From NCBI GenBank assembly GCA_903875045.1, contig CAIQUS010000198.1, forward strand, positions 1 to 35,850: a stretch of DNA of 35,850 nt, written 5' to 3'. The notes under the pieces are model-generated. The model searched no databases. It was given only the letters and a program-made list of their open reading frames with translations, and was not told the DNA's origin. Numbering within the stretch: position 1 is the stretch's first letter; every line of letters starts with the position of its first letter. The position numbers and the translations under genes were made by a program. This document shows positions 435 through 23,908 of the stretch, in pieces. Source of the DNA: an uncultured Bacteroidales bacterium. GTDB lineage: Bacteria; Bacteroidota; Bacteroidia; Bacteroidales; FEN-979.

Positions 435-654
435 AGAGATTAATGTTTCAACCGTGTATTTACTGTTTGATAATGTTTACATCCTTTCATTTTGTAATTT
501 ACCGGTATGATTGCGATCAATCAATTGTTTTAGGATGTTTTTCAAGTCCGGAGGCAGAATTAATCGAAATCAGTAAAAAATAACTTCCTGAATCAGTTGT
601 AAAACTTGACTGTTACCCTAAGCCTTTGTCGATGTATTTAGGATAAGATGGCTG
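435..654. other. Intergenic stretch, nothing recognised
   Basis: About 220 nt of AT-rich sequence between the palindromic repeats and the next open frame. I see no convincing gene, hairpin or RNA. The long frame crossing 95-583 is an accident of the fragments it spans. Confidence 0.4.
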
Positions 655-1011
655 TTGAAAACCATTAGGGATTATTCTTTTACCACTACTGCATCAATAA
701 CTGTCCTGCCGTCTCATGAGGCAAAGGATACCATAATCTACTTTTCAGGAAGTATTGTGAGAGGATCCTCCAATTATGTTATAATAACCTATGCTGACCC
801 CTCCTTATCTTTTCCTGAATTATACGTACCTGGTGTGATTTATCCCAATATCAACGATCAGGGACTTTTCAGTTATTCTGATTTTATAAATACCTCATCG
901 CATCCCTTTTTCGAGGGCGACGTAATAGCTGATGGGACCATTAAAATTTCATTTGGGGCAGGATCTCTTGGCGCGAATTGGGGTAATTTTATAACCGGAA
1001 AGAGACGGTAA
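655..1011 (+). CDS. Orphan 118-aa hypothetical protein, probably 5'-truncated
   Basis: An open frame of about 118 codons with the alternating hydrophobic/polar pattern of a beta-rich domain (DTIIYFSGSIVRGSSNYVII; DGTIKISFGAG). I recognise no family. No ATG is available: the first possible start is TTG at 655, with a weak AGGATAAG stretch upstream, and the frame is open only from 622 after a TAA. There is no signal peptide, although the composition suggests an exported or lipoprotein domain. The position between palindromic repeats and integrative-element scars suggests the 3' remnant of a larger gene. It could also be a chance frame. Confidence 0.3.
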   Translation: MKTIRDYSFTTTASITVLPSHEAKDTIIYFSGSIVRGSSNYVIITYADPSLSFPELYVPGVIYPNINDQGLFSYSDFINTSSHPFFEGDVIADGTIKISFGAGSLGANWGNFITGKRR

Positions 1012-1069
1012 TGAATGGTGAAGGATCAAACCCTTTCTTTTTTTGCTTCTTTTTTTTCTTTGTTGAATT

Positions 1070-1262
1070 GACAATGAAAGAACCCATCAAATCAATGCGT
1101 TTCTGATGTAAAATTGCTCGGCTAGGTTTTCAGCCAGGTTTTGAGTCAAGCAGGATGAAAACAGATGATAAAGACTGGACGAAACCATTCCTGATTAATA
1201 TCAATGATAAGGAATACAGCCAGATGACATAAACTGGTAAGGAGTAGTAAATCAAATAAATA
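1070..1262 (+). repeat. Direct repeat A: integrase 3' tail plus downstream arm
   Basis: About 190 nt that recur at 3203-3394 at roughly 90% identity by eye. The first part still encodes the last ~14 residues of a tyrosine recombinase (DNERTHQINAFLM, then stop at 1108-1110). It is followed by ~150 nt of non-coding sequence containing two tandem CAGGTTTT boxes (1120-1145) and AAGCAGGATGAAAACAGATG. The match ends at AAATAAATA, exactly where the second copy runs into tRNA sequence. This copy lacks the tRNA part and instead meets the 3' end of the FISUMP gene. Confidence 0.85.
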
Positions 1263-1282
1263 CAAAAAAATTGTCAAATAAA

Positions 1283-2680
1283 TCAATAGTCTCTAACGCA
1301 ACGGGCAGTGAAGCCGTTCGCCTTGTTGCCGTCGATCATGTTGCTGTGCCCAGCGCTGAATTGCAGGTACCAGCCGTAAGTATTAGGGATCTGCGTACTA
1401 CTCCAGTAGAAGCCGTATGAGCCGCGACTGCTCAGTGAACCATCGCCGGCGGGCAGGTACCCGGCAGCGTGCATTTTTAAACCAGAGTCCCATGGTCCGT
1501 TCCAGTTAGTCCAGTTTCCAATATTATCAACATTATACCATTCAGAATATACTGGTATGCGCCAACCACTGCCAAGCTCAAGTGTGCATGGATCGTTGGC
1601 CGGAATCCAGTCAGAGGCTTCTGCATTGCTGTTTATCCATGTTGTAGCCGGCGTTCGGGTTGTACCATCATGCCTGAAGCCTTGTTTACGGTTAAACTGC
1701 CAGTACCAACCCGCCGAAGATTCGGTTGCATCGTCAACAGCGGTTGCCTGCTGGCTGGCGCCCAGGTTACGGGTAATCCAGCACTTTGAAGTTTCGCCGG
1801 GAATATTGGACACAGTGCCATAGGTAACAGTTTTGGTAACGGGGGCTACCATTCCTGCAACATGGTTGATTGTGAGGGAAGAACCGCAAGAAGAAGAACA
1901 AGCCGAGGTGGTTTGAGTCAATATAGCGGGTGTGGAATTACCGCAGGCATTATACGCCCAAACATATCGCATGTATGATGTTAGACAGGTAAGGCCTGTT
2001 TCCGTTGTAGAAGTAGCGGTTCCCAAATCCATCGCTGTAGCGAAATTGTTGATGGTATTGAACTTATACCCTGTTGCACCTGACGATGATCCCCATTTCC
2101 AGGTAATCTGCGTTGCTGATGAAACATGTACCCCGGCAACAGGTGTTGCAGGGGCCATAATGAGGTTAATATTTATAGACTGCCCCAATCCTTTTCCACA
2201 GATTCCGAATTCCGAAACAGCAATCGATCCGCTGATTGTTCCGAATGCCACTGTTATTGCAGCTGTTCCCTGCCCGCTGGTAATCGTTGATCCCGTGGGA
2301 ACTTGCCAGTGGTAAAATAAACCCGGCCCATTGGGTAAAGTAGTATAGGTTTCGCCAGATGAATTGGCACATGGTGTCATATTCCCGGAAACGGCGCCCG
2401 CTACACTCCACATTATATTTCCAATGGGGACCCATACAGCACCATTAAAAAACTGAAGATCGCTGCAATTGGTATTAAAAATTACAAGACCTGTTGCAGG
2501 GGAGACAATTGCATCGCGCTGGGCGGTAGTTACCCTGGGAGGCAAAATGCCTTTAGAAGTTGATTTGATTTCCAGCATGGCTGATGGATCAGGCTGGGTT
2601 CCGTCGGAGTTAATGCCGACCTGGGCATACATTACCAAAGAACAGGCAATGCAGCAGACAAGTGCTGTAAGCTTTTTCAT
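1283..2680 (-). CDS. Secreted FISUMP-domain protein
   Basis: A 465-residue exported protein. The ATG at 2680 gives a clean signal peptide (MKKLTALVCC to MYAQ, cleavage near residue 20); three extra upstream codons would need a TTG. After the signal comes a GINSDGTQPDPSAMLEI-type segment and ILPPRVTTAQR, the usual N-terminus of Bacteroidota surface or fibre-like proteins. A fibronectin-III-like middle follows, where ATGYKF and TETGLTCLTSY recall FISUMP relatives. The C-terminal ~150 residues form a FISUMP domain: KCWITRNLGA, GWRIPVYSEW, GFYWSSTQ and TARCVRDY at the end. The function of FISUMP domains is unknown beyond surface exposure. No T9SS sorting domain is visible. It stands alone between two ~190-bp direct repeats. 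Confidence 0.85.
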   Translation of the reverse strand: MKKLTALVCCIACSLVMYAQVGINSDGTQPDPSAMLEIKSTSKGILPPRVTTAQRDAIVSPATGLVIFNTNCSDLQFFNGAVWVPIGNIMWSVAGAVSGNMTPCANSSGETYTTLPNGPGLFYHWQVPTGSTITSGQGTAAITVAFGTISGSIAVSEFGICGKGLGQSININLIMAPATPVAGVHVSSATQITWKWGSSSGATGYKFNTINNFATAMDLGTATSTTETGLTCLTSYMRYVWAYNACGNSTPAILTQTTSACSSSCGSSLTINHVAGMVAPVTKTVTYGTVSNIPGETSKCWITRNLGASQQATAVDDATESSAGWYWQFNRKQGFRHDGTTRTPATTWINSNAEASDWIPANDPCTLELGSGWRIPVYSEWYNVDNIGNWTNWNGPWDSGLKMHAAGYLPAGDGSLSSRGSYGFYWSSTQIPNTYGWYLQFSAGHSNMIDGNKANGFTARCVRDY

Positions 2681-3069
2681 GATTGCCAATTATAGGGTTT
2701 GTAAATAATAAGCCATCACTAATGATTTCCTGAGTAAGGAATAGTGGGTCATTAGCTGGCATGTAATTTAAGAGTTTGCTGAGGTTCAGAAAACAACAAT
2801 ACGAAAACAGAACTTTTCAATCTGCTAAAAGTATAACAATTCAATCCAAAATCCAAATTATTTGATGGATTATTTTCAAAATTGATTCTCATTTTCCAGA
2901 AAAAATTAAATCAGATACTATCTTTCTTACTTATAAAAAGTCCCGGAGCTAGCCTAATTTGCCGGAAGCCTAAAACTTAGTATCATTAATCGGTTATGAG
3001 TTTTTCAAAATCCTTCTGTGTAAAAAGTTATCCACTTCCTCTCATGGGGAGAAATTCATCTTTATCATG
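2681..3069. other. Intergenic stretch, no gene recognised
   Basis: About 390 nt of AT-rich sequence upstream of the FISUMP gene. It must hold that gene's promoter, but no good -7 TAnnTTTG box was found on the minus strand; the nearest is a one-mismatch match around 2803. I see no hairpin or RNA gene. The right end grades into the integrase remnant. Confidence 0.35.
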
Positions 3070-3243
3070 TCAGATTTGAGACTTATAGCATTCTGAAAAA
3101 GCGATAGGTGCTTACTGCTTGAGAATCTTATCCAAGGATGATATCGGCAGTATGCTCGGTCATTCTAATTCCATTGTAACGGAACATTATCTGGCATCGT
3201 TGGACAGTGAAAGAACCCATCAAATCAATGCGGTTTTGATGTA
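3070..3243 (+). pseudogene. Tyrosine recombinase (integrase) C-terminal remnant
   Basis: The frame ending at TAA 3241-3243 encodes SKDDIGSMLGHSN, VTEHYLASLDSERTHQ and INAVLM. This is the end of a Bacteroidota phage or transposon tyrosine recombinase, with the LGH box and the nucleophile tyrosine in EHYL. Going upstream there is a stop in frame. A second frame carries RFETYSILKKR (about 3073-3105), which looks like the conserved RH..Y box with its histidine lost, so at least one frameshift separates them. The N-terminal and central catalytic parts are absent. It lies just upstream of a tRNA 3' half, as expected for the integrase of an element inserted at a tRNA. Confidence 0.75.
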
Positions 3244-3394
3244 AAAATATTCGGCCAGGTTTTCAGCCAGGTTTTGAGCCAAGCAGGATGAAAACAGATG
3301 ATAACGACTGGACGAAACCATTCCTGATTAAAATCAATGATAAGGAATACAACCAGATGACATTAATTGGTAAGATGTTGTAAATCAAATAAAT
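3203..3394 (+). repeat. Direct repeat B: integrase tail plus arm, abutting tRNA fragment
   Basis: Second copy of the ~190-nt repeat at 1070-1262. It carries the last integrase codons, two CAGGTTTT boxes at 3253-3278, the GGATGAAAACAGATGATAA block and the AATCAAATAAATA end. Differences from copy A are scattered substitutions and a one-base indel near the stop codon, consistent with two diverged remnants of related elements rather than a very recent duplication. The last base is followed directly by the anticodon region of a tRNA fragment. Confidence 0.85.
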
Positions 3395-3396
3395 AA

Positions 3397-3439
3397 GCTC
3401 ATAATCTATTGGTCCCAGGTTCAAGTCCTTGTGGGCCCA
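3397..3439 (+). tRNA. tRNA-Met(CAU) 3' half (attachment-site remnant)
   Basis: This reads as the 3' half of a tRNA: anticodon loop CTCATAA (3398-3404, anticodon CAT at 3400-3402), stem strand TCTAT, variable TGGTC, a T arm with CCAGG, loop TTCAAGT and CCTTG (one mismatch), acceptor strand TGGGCCC and discriminator A. The 5' half is missing: the sequence before the anticodon is the end of direct repeat B and cannot form the D arm or 5' acceptor. It is therefore not a functional tRNA but a duplicated target segment, as left by tyrosine recombinases that integrate into tRNA 3' ends. Anticodon CAT could also belong to a tRNA-Ile2. Confidence 0.75.
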
Positions 3440-3525
3440 CTTCAAAATCAGCCACTTACACGTTAAACGGTAGGTAGTTTTTTGTTTTCAGCCTGGTTTT
3501 GGCCAGGTTTTGAGGAAAATCACTC
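3438..3525 (+). repeat. Direct repeat C1: post-tRNA terminator and CAGGTTTT boxes
   Basis: It begins CACTTCAAAATCAGCC immediately after the tRNA fragment, continues through a terminator hairpin with TTTTTT, and ends with tandem CCTGGTTTT/CCAGGTTTT boxes (3489-3515) and TTTTGAGG. A second copy lies at 4238-4327, so the two bracket the MntA-HepT genes. By eye the two are about 75% identical. Confidence 0.75.
3452..3483 (+). terminator. Terminator following the tRNA fragment
   Basis: CCACTTAC can pair with GTAGGTAG (one mismatch, one G-T) around an ACGTTAAACG loop, followed by a run of six T. Its position 12 nt after the tRNA end fits an original tRNA terminator. The stem is modest. Confidence 0.45.
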
Positions 3526-3565
3526 CTTTGTTTTCCAATCCTGGAAAGAATAAGTTGTTTTTATC

Positions 3566-3573
3566 TAATTTTG
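3566..3573 (+). promoter_or_regulatory. Candidate -7 promoter box for mntA
   Basis: TAATTTTG matches the Bacteroidota -7 consensus TAnnTTTG, only 4 nt before the mntA ATG at 3578. Transcription would then start at or next to the ATG, giving an almost leaderless message. No clear -33 TTTG is present at the expected spacing, so this is tentative. Confidence 0.3.
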
Positions 3574-3577
3574 TCGA

Positions 3578-3889
3578 ATGGATTTGATAGAAATAAATAG
3601 AAATGATATTTCCACTCTTTGTGAAAATCATAAGGTTAAACAATTATTTCTGTTTGGCTCCGTCCTTTCCGACAGGTTCAATAATTCCAGTGATATCGAT
3701 ATGCTTGTACAATTCTCAAATGTTGATTTACTCGATTATTTTGACAATTACATGGATCTTAAGGAAAAATTTGAGCGCCTGTTAAACAGGCACATTGATT
3801 TGGTGGAAAACCAGGCAATAAAAAATCCAATATTTCGAAAAATCGTTGACCGCGATAAATTCCTGATCTATGAACGAAAAAGTACTTAA
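3578..3889 (+). CDS. mntA: MntA-type minimal nucleotidyltransferase (antitoxin)
   Basis: A 103-residue nucleotidyltransferase of the MNT family. It has the motif GS-x10-DID (GSVLSDRFNNSSDID), in which GS begins the nucleotide-binding loop and the two aspartates bind metal; the LV after them leads into the next strand. MntA proteins act as antitoxins by attaching AMP units to a tyrosine of the partner HEPN toxin, which blocks its RNase activity. The stop lies 20 nt inside the downstream hepT gene, a typical co-translated arrangement. The pair sits between two ~80-90-bp direct repeats inside integrative-element debris, consistent with carriage by a mobile element. Confidence 0.88.
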   Translation: MDLIEINRNDISTLCENHKVKQLFLFGSVLSDRFNNSSDIDMLVQFSNVDLLDYFDNYMDLKEKFERLLNRHIDLVENQAIKNPIFRKIVDRDKFLIYERKST

Positions 3890-4208
3890 ATGTTTGTACG
3901 ACATTAAGTTTGCAATTGAAGAAATCGATTCTTACTTTAATCAGGAAAATATTTCGTTCGCAAATTACCAAAATAATATCCTTGTAAAGCGGGCTGTTGA
4001 ACGAGATTTGGAGATCATTGGTGAAGCAACAAACAGAATTCTAAAAGAAGATCCGGAATTTGAAATTGAAAACGCTCACCGTATTGTTGGTTTGCGTAAC
4101 CAGATAATTCATGGTTATGATACAGTTTCAGATGAAAATATTTGGGGCGTTTTAATAAATTACCTGCCTAAGCTAAAGGCGGAGATTATTAAATTAATTG
4201 GTTCCTGA
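3870..4208 (+). CDS. hepT: HepT-type HEPN RNase toxin (DUF86)
   Basis: A 112-residue all-helical HEPN protein overlapping mntA by 20 nt. The active-site motif R-x4-H with the following x-Y is present as RNQIIHGY near residue 77. Arg and His form the RNase site, and the Tyr is the residue known to be AMPylated by MntA in characterised HepT-MntA systems. The region before it (VERDLEIIGEATNRI) is the conserved HepT helix. Family members cleave tRNA or other RNA when not modified. All key residues are intact, so the module looks functional. Nothing marks separate regulation; it is probably translated from the mntA message. Confidence 0.9.
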   Translation: MNEKVLKCLYDIKFAIEEIDSYFNQENISFANYQNNILVKRAVERDLEIIGEATNRILKEDPEFEIENAHRIVGLRNQIIHGYDTVSDENIWGVLINYLPKLKAEIIKLIGS

Positions 4209-4237
4209 GGAAATCTCTTTCATATTGTCCTGTTTAT

Positions 4238-4327
4238 TTCACTTCAAAATCAACCGCTTACAAGTAGAAATGCAGGTGGTTTTTTCTTTTCTGCCAGGTT
4301 TTGGTCAGGTTTTGAGGGGAAAGCACC
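4238..4327 (+). repeat. Direct repeat C2: terminator and CAGGTTTT boxes after hepT
   Basis: Second copy of the repeat at 3438-3525: CACTTCAAAATCAACCGCTTACA, a hairpin with T-run, then CTGCCAGGTTTTGGTCAGGTTTTGAGG (boxes at 4291-4317). Unlike the first copy it is not preceded by tRNA sequence; homology begins exactly at the base that ends the tRNA in copy C1. Confidence 0.75.
4252..4285 (+). terminator. Terminator downstream of hepT
   Basis: AACCGCT pairs with GGTGGTT (7 bp, including G-T pairs) around a 16-17-nt loop, followed by TTTTT. It probably ends the mntA-hepT message and is homologous to the hairpin after the tRNA fragment. Confidence 0.5.
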
Positions 4328-4492: not shown

Positions 4493-5983
4493 ATGAAAGC
4501 ACAAATCCTCCTTATCACTTTCCTGTGCGTTTTCGGTTGCAACTTACAAGCCCAGAATCAACAACATAACGCCACCCTTCCTTCCGGCCCTGAACAGGTC
4601 AGCAGCGGGTTCAACCCACCACAGCCAGGATTCAAACCTGACCACATGGTGGTTCCTGCGAAACGGAATATGTTCGATTCATCGGGCTATGTATGGAAAT
4701 GGGATACGATCATGTGTTACAATGTAGCTTCGGGTGCCAACCCGTTTCAACGGGCTACCCGAACCTATAATTCATTTGGCGAGCAACTCACTATTTTATA
4801 CGAGCGCAGGCAGGGCAGCCTGGCCTGGGAAAATTATGCCAGGGAAGCTGATGCCTACGATTCAGCAGGCAATTGGGTGTATCAGTTACAGGAAATCTGG
4901 CAAAACAATTCTTGGGTGAAGTATCAGAAACAGGAGTTCGTCTATAATACAAACGGAGACCAGGTGGATTGGAAACGTGTGTTTTGGGATTCAACAGCAT
5001 GGGATAATGGATGGCACTATTCATGGCATTTTGATGCAAATGGATTGAATGATACCTGTATGTTTCAGCAAGGGCAAGACAGCCTGTGGGTGAACCAATG
5101 GCTCTGGATTCCTACGTACGATGGAAATGGTTATTTGACAAGTTCTTTAATGTATACCTGGCTAAACAATGATTGGGAGGTAACCTCCCGTGATTCCAGT
5201 ACCTATAATGCAACTGGCAACCATCTTACCCTTCTAAGACAAGTTTTGATTAATTCTTCCTGGGTGAATACTTATGTTCAAACAAATAGCTGGGATACTG
5301 CAGGAAACTGCCTTTCAGCGTTGTATCAGTTATGGCAAAACAATACATGGGAAAATAACCAATACAATGTTTATACATACGATCCGGCAGGAAACAAGGT
5401 CATGGAGATATGGCAAAACTGGTCTAACGGCGCCTGGGTAAACGGCCATCGCATTCTTTATGACTATGATACCAGTATTAACCTGTTATCGGAGACTTCC
5501 CAGGATTGGGTCAATGCTGCCTGGCGGAATGCATACACAACCCAATATACCTATGATTCATGGGGAAACTCGCTGACTGCGAAGGTTCTGAAAGGGTTTA
5601 ATGGCTGGCAACCTTATGATGGGGGACTTGATGTTTATGCCAATCACGAGCGGGACATGGTGCTGCAGGGGGAGATGTATCGATATGAAGCGGTTATAGA
5701 TTCGATATTGGTTTTTATAGAGCCAACAAGATCACTATCGGAGGGACAAGTCACTTTGTATCCGAATCCTGCGCATTCAAGGATATATATTTCTTCGCCT
5801 GCCACATCGACCGATCAGAACGGCTCACTTACCCTGTATGATCTTCGTGGCCAGATGGTTTTAACGAAGCAGATCGTGAATGAAACAACAGGGATTGATG
5901 TCAGCGGCCTAAACCCAGGTGTTTATTTTGTGAGGTTCAGCAATGATCGGATGACAAGGGTGTTGAAATTAGTTAAGGAATAA
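4493..5983 (+). CDS. T9SS-exported protein with YD-like repeats
   Basis: A 496-residue secreted protein. Signal peptide MKAQILLITFLCVFGC to LQAQ. Residues ~60-390 are built from about nine irregular ~38-residue repeats pairing a W-N/D-x-x-W element (QNNSWVKY, LNNDWEV, QNNTWENN, SNGAWVNG, VNAAWRN) with a Y-x-Y-D-x-x-G-N element (YDSAGNW, YNTNGDQ, YNATGNH, YDPAGNK, YDSWGNS). This resembles RHS/YD-type beta repeats. The C-terminal ~75 residues are a T9SS type A sorting domain: VTLYPNPAHSRIYIS, LYDLRGQMV, GLNPGVYFVRF and a basic LKLVKE end. It is expected to cross the outer membrane by type IX secretion and be surface-attached or released. It is followed 46 nt later by the alpha-CTD-like gene. 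Ligand unknown. Confidence 0.88.
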   Translation: MKAQILLITFLCVFGCNLQAQNQQHNATLPSGPEQVSSGFNPPQPGFKPDHMVVPAKRNMFDSSGYVWKWDTIMCYNVASGANPFQRATRTYNSFGEQLTILYERRQGSLAWENYAREADAYDSAGNWVYQLQEIWQNNSWVKYQKQEFVYNTNGDQVDWKRVFWDSTAWDNGWHYSWHFDANGLNDTCMFQQGQDSLWVNQWLWIPTYDGNGYLTSSLMYTWLNNDWEVTSRDSSTYNATGNHLTLLRQVLINSSWVNTYVQTNSWDTAGNCLSALYQLWQNNTWENNQYNVYTYDPAGNKVMEIWQNWSNGAWVNGHRILYDYDTSINLLSETSQDWVNAAWRNAYTTQYTYDSWGNSLTAKVLKGFNGWQPYDGGLDVYANHERDMVLQGEMYRYEAVIDSILVFIEPTRSLSEGQVTLYPNPAHSRIYISSPATSTDQNGSLTLYDLRGQMVLTKQIVNETTGIDVSGLNPGVYFVRFSNDRMTRVLKLVKE

Positions 5984-8113: not shown

Positions 8114-9052
8114 ATGAATATCAAACATATTGTACTGAGTCTGTTCTTTTTAATGATCGTTTTTCCTGTTTTGTCCCAGTCAAAGATCAACAGTAGCAAA
8201 CCCACCATCAAAACAATAAAGATGGTTAACTCATACGGTGATACTGGCACCTATACAGGACCGGTTGTAAATGGAAAAGCCAATGGGGTAGGTTCTTTTG
8301 TATCGAAAAATGGTGCAACGTATGAAGGTGGTTTCAAAAATGGCCTGCGTAACGGACCAGGAACTTATATCCAGCCGGACGGTGGAAAGTATATGGGTAA
8401 TTTTACCAATGACCGGTGTAATGATGCAAATGCGACAATGGTCTACTCGGATGGATCGCGCTACGAAGGTGGCTTCAGAGAGGGTGTCCGAAATGGTCTT
8501 GGATTATTGATCTACAGTGATGGCACCCGCTATTATGGGAATTTCGTTAATGATAATCAGCAAGGTCAGGCAGTTGTTAACTATAAGGATGGAAGTAAAT
8601 ACGTCGGGGACATACAAATGGGGCATGCTAAACGATTTGGGAGTACCTGCGGGCTCCCGACTGGCTTTGGGGCCTTGTACAAGCCCAATGGAAGAGTTGA
8701 TGTCGGGACCTTTGAAAGCAAGTGGACAACTTCAGGCTACATTTGGTACCCCAAGGATTGTATTACGAAATCCACAAACAGGAGTGAGGGTAAAAAGTGC
8801 TGCTACCCTGTTCTGGTAAAGTGGGATGAAAATGCACAAACCGCATCATACAATAGTGAAGGCAACACTTTTAATGTATGCTGGAAGTATAATAAAAATA
8901 AAAGCAGGTATGATATTTCTGACTGTGGATATGGAGATGTGGGAACATATTGCATGAACGGGGATATTCTATTCTGGGATACCAAGTTTGGTGAAGCGCC
9001 TGACTTGAGATCCGCTATTATTCTGGCCCTGAAGAATTCCTACTGCAGGTAG
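8114..9052 (+). CDS. Exported MORN-repeat protein with Cys-rich C-terminus
   Basis: A 312-residue protein with a signal peptide (MNIKHIVLSLFFLMIV to LSQ). Residues ~45-175 hold about six MORN repeats of the form Y-x-G-x-(F/V)-x-N-G-x-x-x-G-x-G (TYEGGFKNGLRNGPG, RYEGGFREGVRNGLG, RYYGNFVNDNQQG). MORN repeats form an extended beta meander used for binding or membrane contact. The last ~140 residues are unrecognised and unusually rich in cysteine (DCITK, KKCCYP, NVCWKY, SDCGYG, TYCMN, SYCR), which suits a disulphide-rich envelope protein. A thiol-oxidoreductase-like T9SS gene lies two genes downstream on the other strand. Confidence 0.82.
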   Translation: MNIKHIVLSLFFLMIVFPVLSQSKINSSKPTIKTIKMVNSYGDTGTYTGPVVNGKANGVGSFVSKNGATYEGGFKNGLRNGPGTYIQPDGGKYMGNFTNDRCNDANATMVYSDGSRYEGGFREGVRNGLGLLIYSDGTRYYGNFVNDNQQGQAVVNYKDGSKYVGDIQMGHAKRFGSTCGLPTGFGALYKPNGRVDVGTFESKWTTSGYIWYPKDCITKSTNRSEGKKCCYPVLVKWDENAQTASYNSEGNTFNVCWKYNKNKSRYDISDCGYGDVGTYCMNGDILFWDTKFGEAPDLRSAIILALKNSYCR

Positions 9053-11918: not shown

Positions 11919-13001
11919 CTATTCGCCCTTTATTTTGAGGACAAGGATATTTTTCCCATCAGTGTACGTATAATCCACGGTTTTGCACCGGCCGAGGATC
12001 AGTTTTAACGCGATATCTTCTTCAAGGAGGTCCTCTTTCAACGGGTTTACCGGCATGCCGGTGCTTTCGCACACGAGTTGCACATCGCCATCCTTTTCGG
12101 AATAGGAGAGGTTCAGTTCGATGTTTGTAAAATCCGTCTGCAGTTCCAGGAGCTCTTCTGCAATGTGCACCACGTAGCCGGTCACTTTTTTTGAGACCAG
12201 ATGTTTTTCGCAGAATACTTCCATCTCACCCTGTAAGGCATACAGATCGTAGTCCCTGCTCCTGATCCGGAAATTCAGACTGCGCACGCGGTTGATAAAT
12301 GCCTGTGTTTTTTCCTTCTGAGGATGATCGAAGATCTGCACAGGGGTTCCCTCTTCATAAATCACTCCCTCATCCATGTAAAACACCCGGCTGGAGGTAT
12401 TCCGAGCAAATTCCATTTCATGGGTTACAATGATCATGGTCATGCCTTCCCGTGAAAGGCGGCGGATCACGGAGAGCACCTCACTGACCATGGTTGGATC
12501 GAGGGCCGATGTTGGTTCGTCGAAGAGCATGATTTCGGGCTCCATGGCGAGGCACCGGGCAATGGCCACCCGCTGTTTTTGCCCGCCCGACAGTTCATCG
12601 GGGAAGCTGTATCTCTTTTCGGCCAATCCGACCATTTTTAGCAGTTCCATGGCCTTAGCATCCGCTTCGGCCCGATTTTTCCCCAGGAGTTTGACCGGGC
12701 CGATGGTCAGGTTTTCGAGCACCGAAAGATGGGCATAGAGGTTGAAGGATTGAAATACCATGCCAATCTTCTGGCGTATTTTCGGGACATTGGTGTGTTT
12801 GTCGAGCAGCGGAATGCCATCGATCAGGATAGTGCCGCCGGTTGGTATTTCAAGCAGGTTGAGGCAGCGCAGGAAAGTGCTTTTACCCGTTCCTGACGGG
12901 CCGATAACGGAAATGACCTCTCCTTTCCGGATTTCAGTGGTGATATCCTTCAGCACCACCAGGTCGCCAAAATGTTTGGACAGGTTTGTTACTTTTATCA
13001 T
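11919..13001 (-). CDS. Polar amino-acid ABC importer ATPase with extra C-terminal domain
   Basis: A 360-residue ATPase of the GlnQ/HisP type. Residues 1-245 carry Walker [10 protein letters not shown] (34-42), Q-loop VFQSF, signature LSGGQKQR, Walker [11 protein letters not shown] and the H-loop THEM. Usual family length is ~240, so ~115 residues are added. The extension ([64 protein letters not shown]) has the strand-helix order of RsbW/SpoIIAB-type HATPase domains, but the N-box asparagine and glycine-rich lid are not visible, so it is probably a degenerate, non-ATP-binding version. It may be a regulatory or dimerising domain. The start codon overlaps the permease stop by 4 nt (ATGA), so the two are translationally coupled. 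Confidence 0.9.
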
Positions 13002-15535: not shown

Positions 15536-16933
15536 ATGAAAATTCAATTTCCGCTTTTCATTCTTCTGGTTTTACTTTTTTTTCAGACGAAATCACAATC
15601 ATTTGTGATACATGATGTTTTGGTAAGCAGCCTGGATGCTAAAATATGTGACGTTGAAATCGACCCCTTACGAAAAAGGATATGCTGGCAATCGCCGGAC
15701 GATGATAAGTTATGGGTATGCCATCTCGACACCAACACATGGGGGCTGACTGTTCCTGACGGAAAAGAGACACTGATCGACAGCACCCTGACTCCAATTG
15801 ACCAGACTTCAAACAGTGGCGAGTGGGGATACGATCAGAATGGATCCTATATCGTTTATAATAAAGAGTTTAACCGAAAACGATACATTTCGCTGGCTGC
15901 CGAAACAGGATCCACATGGTCATTATGTACCCTTTTCGATGCGCCACACCGGATGAACCCTCATGCCACCAAAAACCCGGCTGATACATTTCTGGCAGTC
16001 CATTACATTTCAACGCTCTTGACCAACTATACCAAATATAAATTTCTGAACAATCCGACACACGAGTATTGGATCCACGATTTCAAAGATGCCCACTGGG
16101 CCAGTGATGAACAACTCTTAACGGGTGTACTTAAAAACAATCATCAGGTTGGTTTGTTTGATCCGGCCAACCCCGCATTACCGGTTCAGCTCACCTTTGA
16201 CAATGGCAAGGTATACTCACGCCCCTATATGTGGCGTGCCCCTGAACACGAAAATTCCCGGATGATTTTTGCAAATGCCGACGGGGAGGAGATACGCATA
16301 TTCAAAGAAGTTTCGCCCGGGAGCAACAATTATACGCTGTATATGGCCTTCACCAGTCCTTCGTCAAATCCGGTGTACAGAATAATCGGCTCCCCGGAAC
16401 CATGTGTTTACGACGGGCAATCGTATATCTCCTTCATGACCTCCTCCTCAGAATGTGAAACAGCGTGCTTCCCCGGTGAAATCTGGATTGCAAAAATCGA
16501 CAGCCTGGCCCCGATTTTCAGAATGATTTCCGATCCTTCCATCGGCATCCGTACAGATCCGGAAACACTTGCAACCAATGATTCATTGCTGGTTTATTAT
16601 ACAGAGGTAGATGATACCACCGGTCCGGCACCGGTTTACAGGCTAAAAAAATGTGACACCGGTTTTGGAATAAATTTACCGACGGGAACCAATGAAAATC
16701 CCGGTCTGAAAAACACAAAACTGATCGTTTATCCGAATCCTTTTCAGCATCGGATTGCTTTAAAAAACGCGACGGGGAGTGAGCGTTACGAACTGGCCGA
16801 CAAGTTTGGAAGAACTTTATGGACCGGGAAATACATCGGGCGCAAAGACTTTTCCTATTTGCCTGCCGGGTTGTATTTTTTAAAAGTCAACGCCGGCAAT
16901 ACAATCAATACCATCGAACTTATCAAAGAATAA
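15536..16933 (+). CDS. T9SS-exported beta-propeller-like protein
   Basis: A 465-residue secreted protein with signal peptide MKIQFPLFILLVLLFFQTKSQS. The middle (~25-370) is a series of beta-rich stretches of TolB/propeller type: KICDVEIDPLRKRICWQS, GEWGYDQNGSYIVYNKEF, HWASDEQLLTGVL, RMIFANADGEEIRIFKEV, EIWIAKIDSLAPIF. I cannot assign catalytic residues. The C-terminus is a short T9SS type A sorting domain (LIVYPNPFQHRIALKN, ELADKFGRTLW, YLPAGLYFLKV, IELIKE). It is divergent from the ABC importer, with direct repeats in the shared upstream region. A secreted binding or sensor protein is the safest description. Confidence 0.82.
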   Translation: MKIQFPLFILLVLLFFQTKSQSFVIHDVLVSSLDAKICDVEIDPLRKRICWQSPDDDKLWVCHLDTNTWGLTVPDGKETLIDSTLTPIDQTSNSGEWGYDQNGSYIVYNKEFNRKRYISLAAETGSTWSLCTLFDAPHRMNPHATKNPADTFLAVHYISTLLTNYTKYKFLNNPTHEYWIHDFKDAHWASDEQLLTGVLKNNHQVGLFDPANPALPVQLTFDNGKVYSRPYMWRAPEHENSRMIFANADGEEIRIFKEVSPGSNNYTLYMAFTSPSSNPVYRIIGSPEPCVYDGQSYISFMTSSSECETACFPGEIWIAKIDSLAPIFRMISDPSIGIRTDPETLATNDSLLVYYTEVDDTTGPAPVYRLKKCDTGFGINLPTGTNENPGLKNTKLIVYPNPFQHRIALKNATGSERYELADKFGRTLWTGKYIGRKDFSYLPAGLYFLKVNAGNTINTIELIKE

Positions 16934-20847: not shown

Positions 20848-23319
20848 CTACCGGTTGATATATTTCACGGTCCTCGCAAACTCGTTGCTCCTGAGTGTAA
20901 CCAGGTAAAGGCCTTTTGGAAACCGTGAGAGATCGTAGTCACGTGTAAGGGGTTTTCCTTCCGAAAATTCGATACGGTCGGTCATGACTGTTTCACCAAC
21001 AATCGTGGTGATGGTCAACTCCATGAACTGCCCCGGTGATCTTGCTTCAAGATGCAGGTGGCCGCTGCCGGGGTTGGGATAAACGGTCAGCGAACTTTCA
21101 GTCAACAGCTCCTCAATTCCGGTACAGGCCGAAAAGGAGAAACTCACTTTGGAATCGGCTGAATCTACACATCCTTGTTCATTCAGCACTTTTACCCGGT
21201 AAAACTGAACATCGTTGCCGATACCTGTGGTGGTTACATCGATCGTTTGCGTAGTTGCCCCGTTCGACCAGTAATAGGTGGAGCCGGGATTTCCAGCATC
21301 AAGGGTTACTTTTTCATAAATGCAAGCCGTCGTGTCTGCAGGCCAGTTGAGGATTAACGGGAGTGGTTTCACCTGCACATTCACCAGCCCCGATGCAGTA
21401 TTAAACCCATCGCTGATGGTCAGATAATAACTGGTGGTTTCATCGGGAATAACCGACGGATCGGCAACCTGTGAGGTAAATCCCGGGGGTGTAGAGGTCC
21501 AGGAATAGGTGTAATTTCCGGATCCGCCGCCAACCATGGCATGTAATTTTGAGGCTTCGCCTTTGCAAAGAATAGCCGGGGTTGCTACCGGGTTACACGC
21601 CAGGGGACTTCCGGTTACCGAGATAGTGACCCGGGCCGGCTCACTCACACATCCGGTGGCATTGTCAGTAACAATGAGTGAAAATATCGTAGTAAGTGTG
21701 AGATTTGTTACCGTCGGATTGATATTGGTTGAAGAAAACCCGGGAGGGTTTGAGGTCCAGTAGTAACTGTAATTGCCCGACCCGCCTGTGGCTGATCCAT
21801 AAAGTGTGGTGCTTGTGCCATAAGGGATACTTGTATTCTGTCCGGCGCCGGCAAGAGGGTTGGGGTTGACATTTACAATCGTACTTCCTGAGATGGTGCT
21901 GAAACCATCGCTGATCTGAGCAGTATAGGTTGTGGTTGTAACCGGGTAAACCGTCGGGTTGTGAAGATTTGATGTAAATCCGGGAGGATTTGAAGTCCAG
22001 GAGAAGGAGTAGTTCCCGCTTCCGCCGGAAACCATCGCATCAAGGAGCGTAGACTCTCCTGCACAAACTGTACCGGGGGTACTCGTGGCTGTGACTCCAA
22101 GCGGGCCGCCGACTATCGTAACCAATACATCGGCATTTCCATGACAACCGGCATTGTCGGTCACATTCAGCAGAAAGTTGACCGAAGCCCCCAGGTTAAC
22201 GGTAACAGGTTGCGCAACATTTGGGTTGACAAGCAAACCGGCAGGCTCCCAATGATAGGTATATGGGGTGGCGCCCCCTGATGCGGCCCCGTGAAGGGTG
22301 ATGATGACTCCGTTCGCCACCGTGGTATCATTCCCTGCTGATACAACGGGTGCATTGATTTCATTCAGCTGGAAGGGATATCCCTGGTAAACACAGATAT
22401 TATCGCAGAGATCACGTACATCCCCTGCGATATTCAGCGTGTAACTGCCGGCGCCGAGTTTGGGTACAGCCGCAATGGTGCAGCTTCTTCCGTTGGTGGC
22501 ACCGGTTGCGCAATCTGTGGAAGTGACACCGGTAATGGTATAGGTCCCGGCCGGGCCTGTGAGGGTGAATTTTTCGGGGTGGTTGAAAATATCAGCACAT
22601 TTTACATTTTCCGAAAAACGGAAAAACAGACTGTCGGATCCTGCGCACGATACCGTTTGAGCAATGGAGTCGATGGTGGCAGGGGTGATGTCAAAGATGG
22701 ATGCCGATGATCCGCTGAAATCGAGCGTATATCCCGACTGGTTGGAGCTTGACCAGTTGCTCACATTCAATACATACGTTTGTCCGGCCAGTACCATGAG
22801 ATCCTTATTGAATTTTTTCCCAACTGCACCCGGACCGTTGCAGTTCAGGTTGTTACCAAGTGCAGTACTGATACCGGTTGGTCCGTTGGTACCGGTAACT
22901 CCATACGAATTGCAACTCACCTGAAGGGTTGATGCGTTGGTATATATCTGATCACATCCTGCGGTGGTCATGTTGAAAAGAGACCAGTCGTAGTCGTTGG
23001 ACGCATTGTTCGGTGTAAGTGTGAACCTCAGGATCCCATTGGTTTGAACGGTGATGATGTAAAACACATCATTTTTTTCACCGTCCATACAAAGCGGGCA
23101 TACACTGTTGGCCCTGATCTCAGGATAAACATTTCCATGCCCGGTATAGGAAGCCAGTGTCGTATACACGGGCTGGCATACCGGAATGGCGCCAAGGCAA
23201 TCCTGTACGGTGGGGGCTCCGGAGTATGACTGAGCCAGAGAATATAAACTATTCACAACCAGCAGGAAAACCATTCCCAGGGTGGTTACATATTGTTTAA
23301 TCGAAGTTACATGGTGCAT
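20848..23319 (-). CDS. Large T9SS adhesin-like protein with PKD/Ig repeats
   Basis: An 823-residue secreted protein. The chosen ATG at 23319 gives signal peptide MHHVTSIKQYV...LAQS; a longer frame would overlap the ORF6N gene. Residues ~33-215 match the N-terminal domain common in gliding-motility and adhesin proteins (DCLGAIPVC, GEKNDVFYIITV, FTLTPNNASNDYDWSLFN). Then come an Ig-like domain (~220-335) and four PKD-like repeats (~340-680). Three of these share GGSGNY-x-(F/Y)-x-WTS-x-PPGF, showing recent internal duplication. A cysteine-containing Ig domain and a T9SS type A sorting domain (LTVYPNPGSGHLHLEA, RFPKGLYLVTL, VKYINR) follow. The role is probably surface adhesion or matrix. The partner or ligand is unknown. 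Confidence 0.87.
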   Translation of the reverse strand: MHHVTSIKQYVTTLGMVFLLVVNSLYSLAQSYSGAPTVQDCLGAIPVCQPVYTTLASYTGHGNVYPEIRANSVCPLCMDGEKNDVFYIITVQTNGILRFTLTPNNASNDYDWSLFNMTTAGCDQIYTNASTLQVSCNSYGVTGTNGPTGISTALGNNLNCNGPGAVGKKFNKDLMVLAGQTYVLNVSNWSSSNQSGYTLDFSGSSASIFDITPATIDSIAQTVSCAGSDSLFFRFSENVKCADIFNHPEKFTLTGPAGTYTITGVTSTDCATGATNGRSCTIAAVPKLGAGSYTLNIAGDVRDLCDNICVYQGYPFQLNEINAPVVSAGNDTTVANGVIITLHGAASGGATPYTYHWEPAGLLVNPNVAQPVTVNLGASVNFLLNVTDNAGCHGNADVLVTIVGGPLGVTATSTPGTVCAGESTLLDAMVSGGSGNYSFSWTSNPPGFTSNLHNPTVYPVTTTTYTAQISDGFSTISGSTIVNVNPNPLAGAGQNTSIPYGTSTTLYGSATGGSGNYSYYWTSNPPGFSSTNINPTVTNLTLTTIFSLIVTDNATGCVSEPARVTISVTGSPLACNPVATPAILCKGEASKLHAMVGGGSGNYTYSWTSTPPGFTSQVADPSVIPDETTSYYLTISDGFNTASGLVNVQVKPLPLILNWPADTTACIYEKVTLDAGNPGSTYYWSNGATTQTIDVTTTGIGNDVQFYRVKVLNEQGCVDSADSKVSFSFSACTGIEELLTESSLTVYPNPGSGHLHLEARSPGQFMELTITTIVGETVMTDRIEFSEGKPLTRDYDLSRFPKGLYLVTLRSNEFARTVKYINR

Positions 23320-23339
23320 GTTGGTGCCGGTATCTACAA

Positions 23340-23347
23340 CAAATGTA
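23340..23347 (-). promoter_or_regulatory. Candidate -7 box for the PKD T9SS gene
   Basis: Minus-strand TACATTTG matches TAnnTTTG, 21 nt upstream of the ATG at 23319 and in the gap after the ORF6N stop. The -33 element would lie inside the end of the ORF6N gene and is not clear. Confidence 0.4.
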
Positions 23348-23359
23348 CAAATAATTTCA

Positions 23360-23908
23360 TCACTTCTCTTCCTTCCCGATCCGGTAACCAATTGTGCTGC
23401 GGGGTGCTGGAGGCTCTTCTTTCTTTTTGATCATCTGTTTGATTGCCTGAAAGATCAGTGTGATCTTCTCATCATGGGCGGCAACGGCGGATTCTAGTTC
23501 ACCAATCTTTCTGGCAAGAGTACTGTTGGTTTCCAGCACACGTCTGAAATGGACGAATGCACGCATAATGGCAATGTTGACACTGATGGCTCGATCGGAA
23601 TTAAGAATGCCTGATAACATAGCAACTCCTTGTTCTGTGAAAGCATAAGGCAGATAACGTGAACCTCCCCAACTTGAGGTCACAATTTGTGACCTCAAGT
23701 TCACCAATTCCTCATAAGTCAATTGGAATAGAAAATCTCGTGGAAACCGTTTAATATTTCTTTTTACGGCCTGTTTTAAAACTTTTGTCGAAACCCCATA
23801 TAAAACAGCAAGATCAACGTCAAAAATCACCTTTTCCTCCCTCACATAGTAAATCTTATGGAACACGGTTTCTTCTGGAAGAGTTGGGGTTTGATTGTTT
23901 GAATCCAT
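23360..23908 (-). CDS. ORF6N-domain DNA-binding protein
   Basis: A 182-residue cytoplasmic protein. Residues ~15-100 are an ORF6N domain: KIYYVREEKVIFDVDLAVLYGVSTKVLKQAVKRN, RFPRDFLFQLTYEE, then SSWGGSRYLPYAFTEQGVAMLSG. This is a KilA-N-related DNA-binding fold common in phages and widespread in Bacteroidota chromosomes. The C-terminal part (~115-165) is a predicted coiled coil (TLARKIGELESAVAAHDEKI, FQAIKQMIKKKEE), probably for oligomerisation. It may be of phage or mobile-element origin, although no other phage gene is adjacent. The coding sequence contains a perfect palindrome at 23671-23701. The stop is 41 nt before the downstream T9SS start. Confidence 0.9.
   Translation of the reverse strand: MDSNNQTPTLPEETVFHKIYYVREEKVIFDVDLAVLYGVSTKVLKQAVKRNIKRFPRDFLFQLTYEELVNLRSQIVTSSWGGSRYLPYAFTEQGVAMLSGILNSDRAISVNIAIMRAFVHFRRVLETNSTLARKIGELESAVAAHDEKITLIFQAIKQMIKKKEEPPAPRSTIGYRIGKEEK
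23671..23701. repeat. Perfect 31-nt palindrome inside the ORF6N gene
   Basis: Two 15-nt arms (AACTTGAGGTCACAA and its exact reverse complement) around a single central base, read in the ORF6N frame as NLRSQIVTSS. No T-run follows, so it is not a terminator. It could be a DNA-binding site or an mRNA hairpin. Confidence 0.9.

Follow-up and report, generated by a model that had tools for sequence, protein, structure and literature searches.

Remnants of a probable tandem array of integrative elements behind a tRNA-Met(CAU) gene in an uncultured Bacteroidales bacterium

Why does half of a tRNA-Met(CAU) gene lie between two families of repeats in a stretch of DNA in which ARAGORN finds no complete tRNA and Rfam, at its gathering thresholds, no match? 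The stretch in question is contig CAIQUS010000198.1 of an uncultured Bacteroidales bacterium, analysed here at its full length of 35,850 nucleotides (the window, which is the whole contig C198 of genome G000; 5,957,721 bases, 253 contigs). We conclude that tyrosine-integrase elements targeting one tRNA-Met(CAU) gene very probably accumulated here in tandem and decayed, the locus being the distal part of their array and the product of an accretion process that left remnants resembling cis-mobilizable elements (CIMEs). The initial annotation of this DNA had proposed scars of nested, successive insertions at a single tRNA site. The scar model is supported, with the qualification that the arrangement is tandem and not nested.

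Repeats L and R and the displaced tRNA half

Repeat L (193 nt) is present at 1070-1262 (L1) and 3203-3395 (L2), the two copies being 92% identical (91.7%), and repeat R (78 nt) at 3438-3515 (R1) and 4240-4317 (R2), with 83% identity (82.7%). Both families are thus real, and L begins within the last codons of a tyrosine integrase as had been suspected: L2 carries the integrase end MLGHSNSIVTEHYLASLDSERTHQINAVLM in frame up to a stop codon at 3242-3244, and L1 retains only about the last 14 codons. L2 also runs, as expected from the initial annotation, into a 43-nt 3′ half of tRNA-Met(CAU) at 3398-3440. This half starts two bases ahead of the anticodon, which is the first base of the anticodon loop (a tRNA-Lys half described below does likewise), and it matches 42 of 43 positions of an intact gene at G000:C184:45303-45377. 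The search for this intact gene had been recommended at the outset, and it revealed a further R copy, termed R0, directly behind the tRNA. R had been thought to begin exactly at the tRNA end. It does adjoin the tRNA, starting three bases inside the 3′ end (CAC), and the second window copy begins at 4240, not at 4238; CACTTCAAAATCA is common to both window copies. Likewise, the proposal that L and R meet the tRNA only at 3395-3440 holds for the window, where this is the sole such junction, and has to be extended by the R copy at the end of the C184 tRNA.

The matches are no product of chance, and the clear copies of L and R are confined to C184 and C198. A 42-nt pattern of the tRNA half, allowing up to three mismatches, gave two matches in 5.96 Mb and no control matches. 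L has three clear copies in G000 at E≤0.001 (two on C198 and a 57-nt piece on C184), and R with the box type of the window also has three (R0 on C184, two on C198), the other matches of the R search being tRNA-Lys ends on C240 and C164. Three copies of each module suggest at least three element remnants. A weak 35-nt L match (G000:C221:36168-36202, E=0.003) lies off the known sites.

L looks like the distal attachment arm of an integrative element, and R like the proximal one. An arriving element would recombine at the anticodon loop of tRNA-Met; its own 3′ half would restore the tRNA, its own terminator and box pair (R) would be placed behind it, and the old 3′ half would be pushed out behind the L arm. 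The next element would target the rebuilt tRNA, and its L together with the displaced half would abut the R of the older resident, which would account for the junction L2-half-R1 (3203-3515). Deletions would then have left no more than the 3′ ends of the integrase genes, the tRNA halves of L1 and R2 would have disappeared, and the genes in between, encoding a lipoprotein, a FISUMP-like protein, MntA-HepT and proteins sorted by the type IX secretion system (T9SS), would represent left-over cargo or later arrivals. Within this scheme we infer the order of insertions, the contact between integrase and boxes, the linkage of C184 to C198 and the status of single genes as cargo.

The L fragment on C184 (positions 12410-12490 of L011, a stretch of G000:C184) runs directly into the 5′ part of a gene whose first codons resemble a signal peptide. 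The integrase tail thus has a further break point here, no more than about 8 nt away from the one in L1. The same stretch holds two short segments with inverted ends (GATCAAGARGAATTTCY) at about 8158-8625 and at 12535-12975, one immediately after the second R0 box, the other within the box pair of the L fragment. They may be copies of a small mobile repeat, perhaps one that prefers these boxes.

Occupied and unoccupied sites in related genomes

For comparison we searched the genomes of the family (G-labels, n=43 including G000), scoring the best 10-19 first-look candidates per genome (16 in the R search, 19 in the L search). Labels with three digits such as L011, L046, L068, L073 and L078 denote DNA stretches of relatives or of G000 and not the repeat L. 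At E≤1e-6, L gave at least nine rows in at least six genomes (three in G000, two in G014, one each in G011, G007, G020 and G022), and each of the nine listed rows comes with a tRNA half, with the tail of an integrase or with the two together. The rows of G007 and G020 represent one stretch in two bins and are counted once: G020:C126 (L048 672-17001) and G007:C7 (L049 1-16331) are 99.9% identical across 16.3 kb although the bins belong to different genera, so that one bin is probably contaminated. R with GCCAGG-type boxes occurs at ≥80% identity in at least six of the 43 genomes (G000, G014, G022, G020, G008 and G013); the remaining genomes match R mostly through the tRNA and the hairpin. A wide occurrence of L and R away from tRNA genes and integrases, which had been named beforehand as speaking against insertion scars, was not seen in the 43 family genomes.

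Two relatives repeat the junction of the window. In G014 the order is tRNA, R, 1.4 kb with a ParE-type toxin and a lipoprotein, L, half and R, and in G022 it is tRNA, R, 7.4 kb, L, half and R, with a group II intron in the first R. G011 shows the end of a T9SS protein, HigB and helix-turn-helix (HTH) proteins, an integrase tail, L and the half, and then no R. The DNA behind the G011 half matches that behind the intact tRNA-Met of G025 over 130 nt at 87% identity, including the half. The recommended comparison of empty and occupied sites thus yields a pair: we read G025 as unoccupied by this element, G011 as occupied, and R as foreign to the native downstream DNA. Since the half of G011 is followed by native-looking DNA that also follows the unoccupied tRNA of G025, the polarity of insertion is fixed, and an empty site, as expected for a tRNA-targeted island, is at hand.

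These sites also bear on the question of whether R is an element arm at all. If it were the native chromosomal terminator of the tRNA, only L would mark elements. Related hairpins without clear box pairs do stand behind the tRNA-Met genes of G001, G006 and G026, and in G013 an integrase-type protein (PF17293 and PF13102, PF00589 under the cut-off, frame near the contig end) adjoins a 17-nt tRNA end and R, so that R preceded that insertion; apparently an element of another kind pushed an older R outwards. However, R is missing behind the displaced half of G011 as well as behind the tRNA-Met of G025, G016 and G017, and the boxes of R mostly track the L boxes of their own element, the exception being G007 with its two box types. 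We therefore regard a native origin of R as very unlikely.

Synteny places the window relative to C184. QueA and a haloacid dehalogenase (HAD)-type gene precede tRNA-Met in G000 and many relatives, and beyond the half of G022 the window genes at 15536 and 20848 have relatives in unchanged order and on the same strand (67% over 449 aa and 75% over 823 aa). Thus, C198 would be the distal side of the locus that begins on C184. An intact tRNA and a displaced 3′ fragment in matching orientation are accordingly present, on two contigs and with the orientation taken from synteny. Gene 9127, which is 60% identical to a gene near the tRNA-Met of G015, was set aside as evidence of synteny because QueA of G015 lies on another contig.

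A short way past the terminator of tRNA-Met, two relatives carry a group II intron (RF02001), at L046 13393-13564 (G022) and L097 1-47 (G013). Insertion behind terminators is a trait of some group II intron classes. Among close relatives in the family there are two versions of the tRNA-Met gene, a CTATTGG and a CAGCTGG type, distinguished by their anticodon stem and T arm.

The integrase has been cut back at differing points in the different copies. With an 87-aa query of its tail, four of the 43 family genomes gave matches at E≤1e-10, all of them remnants in frames of only 51-115 aa. Across 393 genomes of the order, 12 matched at E≤1e-12, nine with frames of 360-428 aa, and a species collection added 16 loci, seven with frames of at least 403 aa (three of the loci are again the G007, G020 and G011 contigs). 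A viral collection held no relative of the tail (four pattern matches, none confirmed), and a phage origin was rejected. The same applies to an integron cassette array: the full-length relative L068 reached 21.9 bits against the integron integrase model, the cut-off being 265, and the sites were read as a tRNA half with direct-repeat boxes, attC sites as such not having been searched for. Among solved structures the L068 integrase found no sequence match.

Box pairs, exchange of parts and rival readings

Both arms carry paired boxes. In L, two boxes 12 nt apart precede the tRNA half; in R, a terminator hairpin is followed by two boxes, which in the window are 11 nt apart. The period of 12 in L1 and L2 was reached by 0 of 200 shuffles each, that of 11 in R1 and R2 by 1 of 200 each. 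Over a larger set, all five L regions had a best period of 12; of the 14 R regions, 12 had a best period of 11 and two (G009 and the tRNA-Lys region of G007) one of 12. Of the 19 regions, 15 were reached by at most two of 200 shuffles. The first box lies 114-157 nt from the half in eight measured cases (144 in the window; the 157 of G014 includes a 10-N gap). The box sequence varies between elements (GCCAGG, GTACAAACA, TTGCAAG, GCAAGG) and is mostly the same at both ends of one element. The simplest reading of these patterns is that the boxes would serve the integrase as paired arm-type sites. When up to three mismatches were allowed, a box-pair pattern gave five matches in four of the 43 genomes and none in controls, and four of these are L arms; the fifth (G008:C61:11195-11219, three mismatches) lies away from known sites. 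A simple terminator scan missed the R hairpin, which folding revealed, with -16.8 kcal/mol for R0 behind the intact tRNA, -10.2 for R1 and -8.8 for R2 (14 of 200 shuffles equally good). Judged by their weaker hairpins, the displaced copies look worn.

The same layout recurs at other tRNA genes. On G000:C240 an intact tRNA-Lys is followed by a terminator hairpin and GTACAAACA twice, with methylase and ResIII genes behind. G000:C164 encodes a 453-aa integrase (PF00589, PF13102), two HTH_17 proteins and a DUF3987 protein, followed by a GTACAAACA box pair and a tRNA-Lys half that is identical at 43 of 43 positions, lies 138 nt from the first box and has a different terminator-like sequence behind it. 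The two contigs would bound a single tRNA-Lys island (G000:C240:40843-49306 and G000:C164:5000-13884). In Chryseobacterium, L078 is a fully bounded 7.5-kb tRNA-Met island. Its tRNA is followed by a hairpin and boxes of TTGCAAG type, similar boxes precede a displaced half (44 of 44 identical), and of the integrase there is a fragment only. L073, an island of 2.6 kb at tRNA-Asn, combines HipA genes with an integrase tail of 77 aa and an interrupted half. In L068 an integrase frame of 435 aa occurs together with ACGCCAGGTTTT twice and a tRNA-Asn-type half, which was identified by eye, as was the half of L074. At the G007 locus (L049 7586-10740), a tRNA-Lys with GTACAAACA boxes behind it stands together with a gene for a PDDEXK/REase-ARP protein and with an integrase remnant of 115 aa whose L arm is of the GCCAGG type, so that two box types share one place.

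A comparison with G014 indicates that units have exchanged parts. The cargo unit next to L1 is identical to its G014 counterpart at 397 of 402 positions (98.8%) between 668 and 1069, and 612-660 is 90% identical to the start of the G014 unit; a deletion interrupts the window copy, the middle of which is missing relative to G014. L1 and the G014 L, by contrast, differ at 21 of 193 positions, and the two genomes as such are 85% identical in QueA and 72% in the adjacent HAD region. The difference between cargo and arm is significant (Fisher's test, p=3e-7), with the best change point after 1097, inside the integrase tail. As the cargo is nearly identical whereas the arm is divergent, the cargo has moved between species and been joined to a different arm, by either homologous recombination or an integrase.

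Could the repeats then be home-made, copied within the genome through duplication or through unequal homologous recombination and not brought in by separate insertions? Some similarities would fit, since R0 and R1 are 96.0% identical and the two R copies of G014 98.7%, and the break at 1097 suggests an exchange inside L. But R0 is as close to the R of G020 (96.0%) as to R1, L2 is nearer to the L of G011 (93.8%) than to L1 (91.7%), R2 is nearer to the R of G022 (88.0%) and G020 (86.7%) than to R1 (82.7%), and the cargo beside L1 is shared with another species. These alignments are short and the differences small over 193 and 75 positions, yet the relations of the arms favour separate arrivals, and we consider duplication within the genome improbable.

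A further explanation supposes that integrase-less cargo units are still mobile in trans, with a helper integrase moving small L-half/R units as on a cassette platform at the tRNA. It draws on the lipoprotein unit, which lacks an integrase and has the same break point in the integrase tail in G000 and G014 despite the lower identity of the chromosomal genes. It also draws on recurring units with toxin-antitoxin-type cargo and nothing but an integrase tail, in G014 (ParE, 1.7 kb), L073 (HipA, 2.6 kb) and G011 (HigB, left end unseen). Homologous recombination through shared arms fits these observations equally, however; the identity break is inside L and not in the core, and no full-length helper of this integrase kind turned up among the 43 family genomes at E≤1e-10. 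Mobility in trans thus seems rather unlikely. Doubtful, too, is a broader proposal built on it, namely a Bacteroidota class of minimal integrase-less tRNA islands with one toxin-antitoxin or surface-protein set, paired-box arms (12 nt in L, mostly 11 in R) and a retained integrase 3′ end, moved in trans by full-length relatives and with cargo swapped at the boundary of integrase tail and L. If true, the tRNA site would be an integron-like capture platform.

Decayed remnants of tandem insertions thus remain the preferred explanation, and several points weigh against it. Every family genome is a draft, no assembled sequence joins C184 to C198 and the G014 L contains a 10-N gap; the arm difference already begins ahead of that gap. 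The search counts are lower bounds: scoring took in some of the first-look candidates of each genome only, so that further L or R copies may exist. No usable integrase with window-type boxes was seen and no excision observed; in the assembled sequence of G000, which does not span the C184-C198 gap, the integrase of this kind is represented by a C-terminal remnant only. The extra L and R copies had been described as lacking tRNA sequence, and none is recognisable at L1 and R2, where the best local matches were reached by 259 and 28 of 500 shuffles, respectively; later loss is the best reading, and no trace of it was found. The match of G011 with G025 covers 84 nt past the half, includes an inverted repeat and does not extend further, even though 2.1 kb of G025 were compared. 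As to the boxes, four of the 19 regions failed the test (both L078 regions, G021 and G012), only one of four further hairpin loci passed it (with a period of 10), and one of ten control tRNA ends did so as well. The GTACAAACA pairs on C240 and C164 have a period of 12 on both sides, so that 11 is not general for R. Because the L regions were selected visually and relatedness among many of the regions makes the loci non-independent, the box test is support and not proof.

Gene content of the window and comparison with known systems

The features of the window are compiled in Table 1. By position, the FISUMP-like gene and MntA-HepT could plausibly be cargo. The FISUMP-like protein remains below the cut-offs of Lcl_C (21.2 bits, cut-off 34.9) and TIGR02145 FISUMP (23.3 bits, cut-off 41.65), as do the MntA-like protein for NF047752 (49 bits) and the HepT-like protein for NF047751 (30.7 bits), both with a cut-off of 60. 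Part of the T9SS gene (5738-5983) has 83% nucleotide identity to G011:C193:65-310, which lies upstream of the G011 L arm beside the integrase tail.

Table 1. Positions of arms, tRNA half and genes in the window.
Feature	Position	Strand	Remarks
Decayed cargo unit: lipoprotein-like pseudogene, N-terminus lost, and flanking DNA	612..1069	+	Counterpart unit in G014:C48
L1, apparent distal attachment arm, ~14 last integrase codons, no tRNA half	1070..1262	+	Boxes 1121-1142; 92% to L2
FISUMP-like gene, presumed cargo	1283..2689	-	PKD_6 above cut-off
Tyrosine integrase C-terminal remnant	3125..3244	+	87% aa identity to G007 integrase tail; in frame to stop
L2, apparent distal attachment arm	3203..3395	+	Boxes 3254-3275; 93.8% to G011, 91.2% to G014
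Displaced tRNA-Met(CAU) 3′ half (core), anticodon loop to 3′ end	3398..3440	+	42/43 to C184 tRNA
R1, apparent proximal arm of next, presumably older element	3441..3515	+	Terminator hairpin and boxes 3491-3512; 96% to R0
MntA-like nucleotidyltransferase antitoxin, presumed cargo	3578..3889	+	PF18765, PF01909; PADLOC PDC-S09
HepT-like RNase toxin, presumed cargo	3870..4208	+	PF01934, 66.3 bits
R2, further proximal-type arm without recognisable tRNA sequence	4240..4317	+	Boxes 4293-4314; 83% to R1, 88% to displaced G022 R
T9SS-sorted protein	4493..5983	+	Por_Secre_tail
Distal chromosomal flank	15536..23391		Genes 15536-16933 and 20848-23391

Accretion at tRNA sites is a known route by which bacterial genomes collect foreign genes, and here it explains how, in uncultured Bacteroidales, a single tRNA gene can gather surface and toxin-antitoxin genes that are specific to the strain. 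The arm signature, i.e. a tRNA 3′ half preceded by a box pair and an intact tRNA followed by a terminator hairpin plus box pair, could serve to map integrase-less islands that integrase-based finders miss. In the open-licence literature we found neither the paired-box signature described for Bacteroidota nor any account of recurring tiny integrase-less toxin-antitoxin units, and a query on tRNA cassette arrays in Bacteroidetes gave no match. This is a weak ground for newness, because the boxes were not queried by sequence.

Among known systems, the closest parallel is tandem accretion with CIMEs, in which elements arrive site-specifically, decay to att-bounded remnants without integration genes and receive a later element into an att site (PMC5704250). 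Arrival, decay and reuse of att sites are the shared traits. At our locus the att ends (tRNA-R and L-half) are retained, the integrase is decayed and no transfer gene was detected among the scanned open reading frames, which cover part of the locus only. In contrast to CIMEs as portrayed there, no functional partner was seen in the window array as assembled, and one L and one R are without a tRNA half. The Dehalococcoides ssrA islands stand in tandem behind one RNA gene, lack an integration module in 15 of 31 cases and show discordant histories of cargo and integration module (PMC3146451). They resemble the window in all three respects and differ in their serine recombinase, tmRNA target and 20-bp repeats. 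With Islander-type islands (PMC4383910), the array shares an intact tRNA plus a displaced 3′ fragment in the same orientation and an anticodon-centred site; Islander requires a length of at least 2 kb and an integrase frame within the island, whereas the array as assembled has a remnant only. Tycheposons, as described in a further paper (PMC10872708), likewise have a tRNA border, including tRNA-Met, a tyrosine recombinase and cargo. The recombinase of the window is a remnant, however, and the observed likeness lies in the tRNA border. Since its scheme matches accretion with CIMEs, the ssrA islands and the Islander signature, the array belongs to a known kind.

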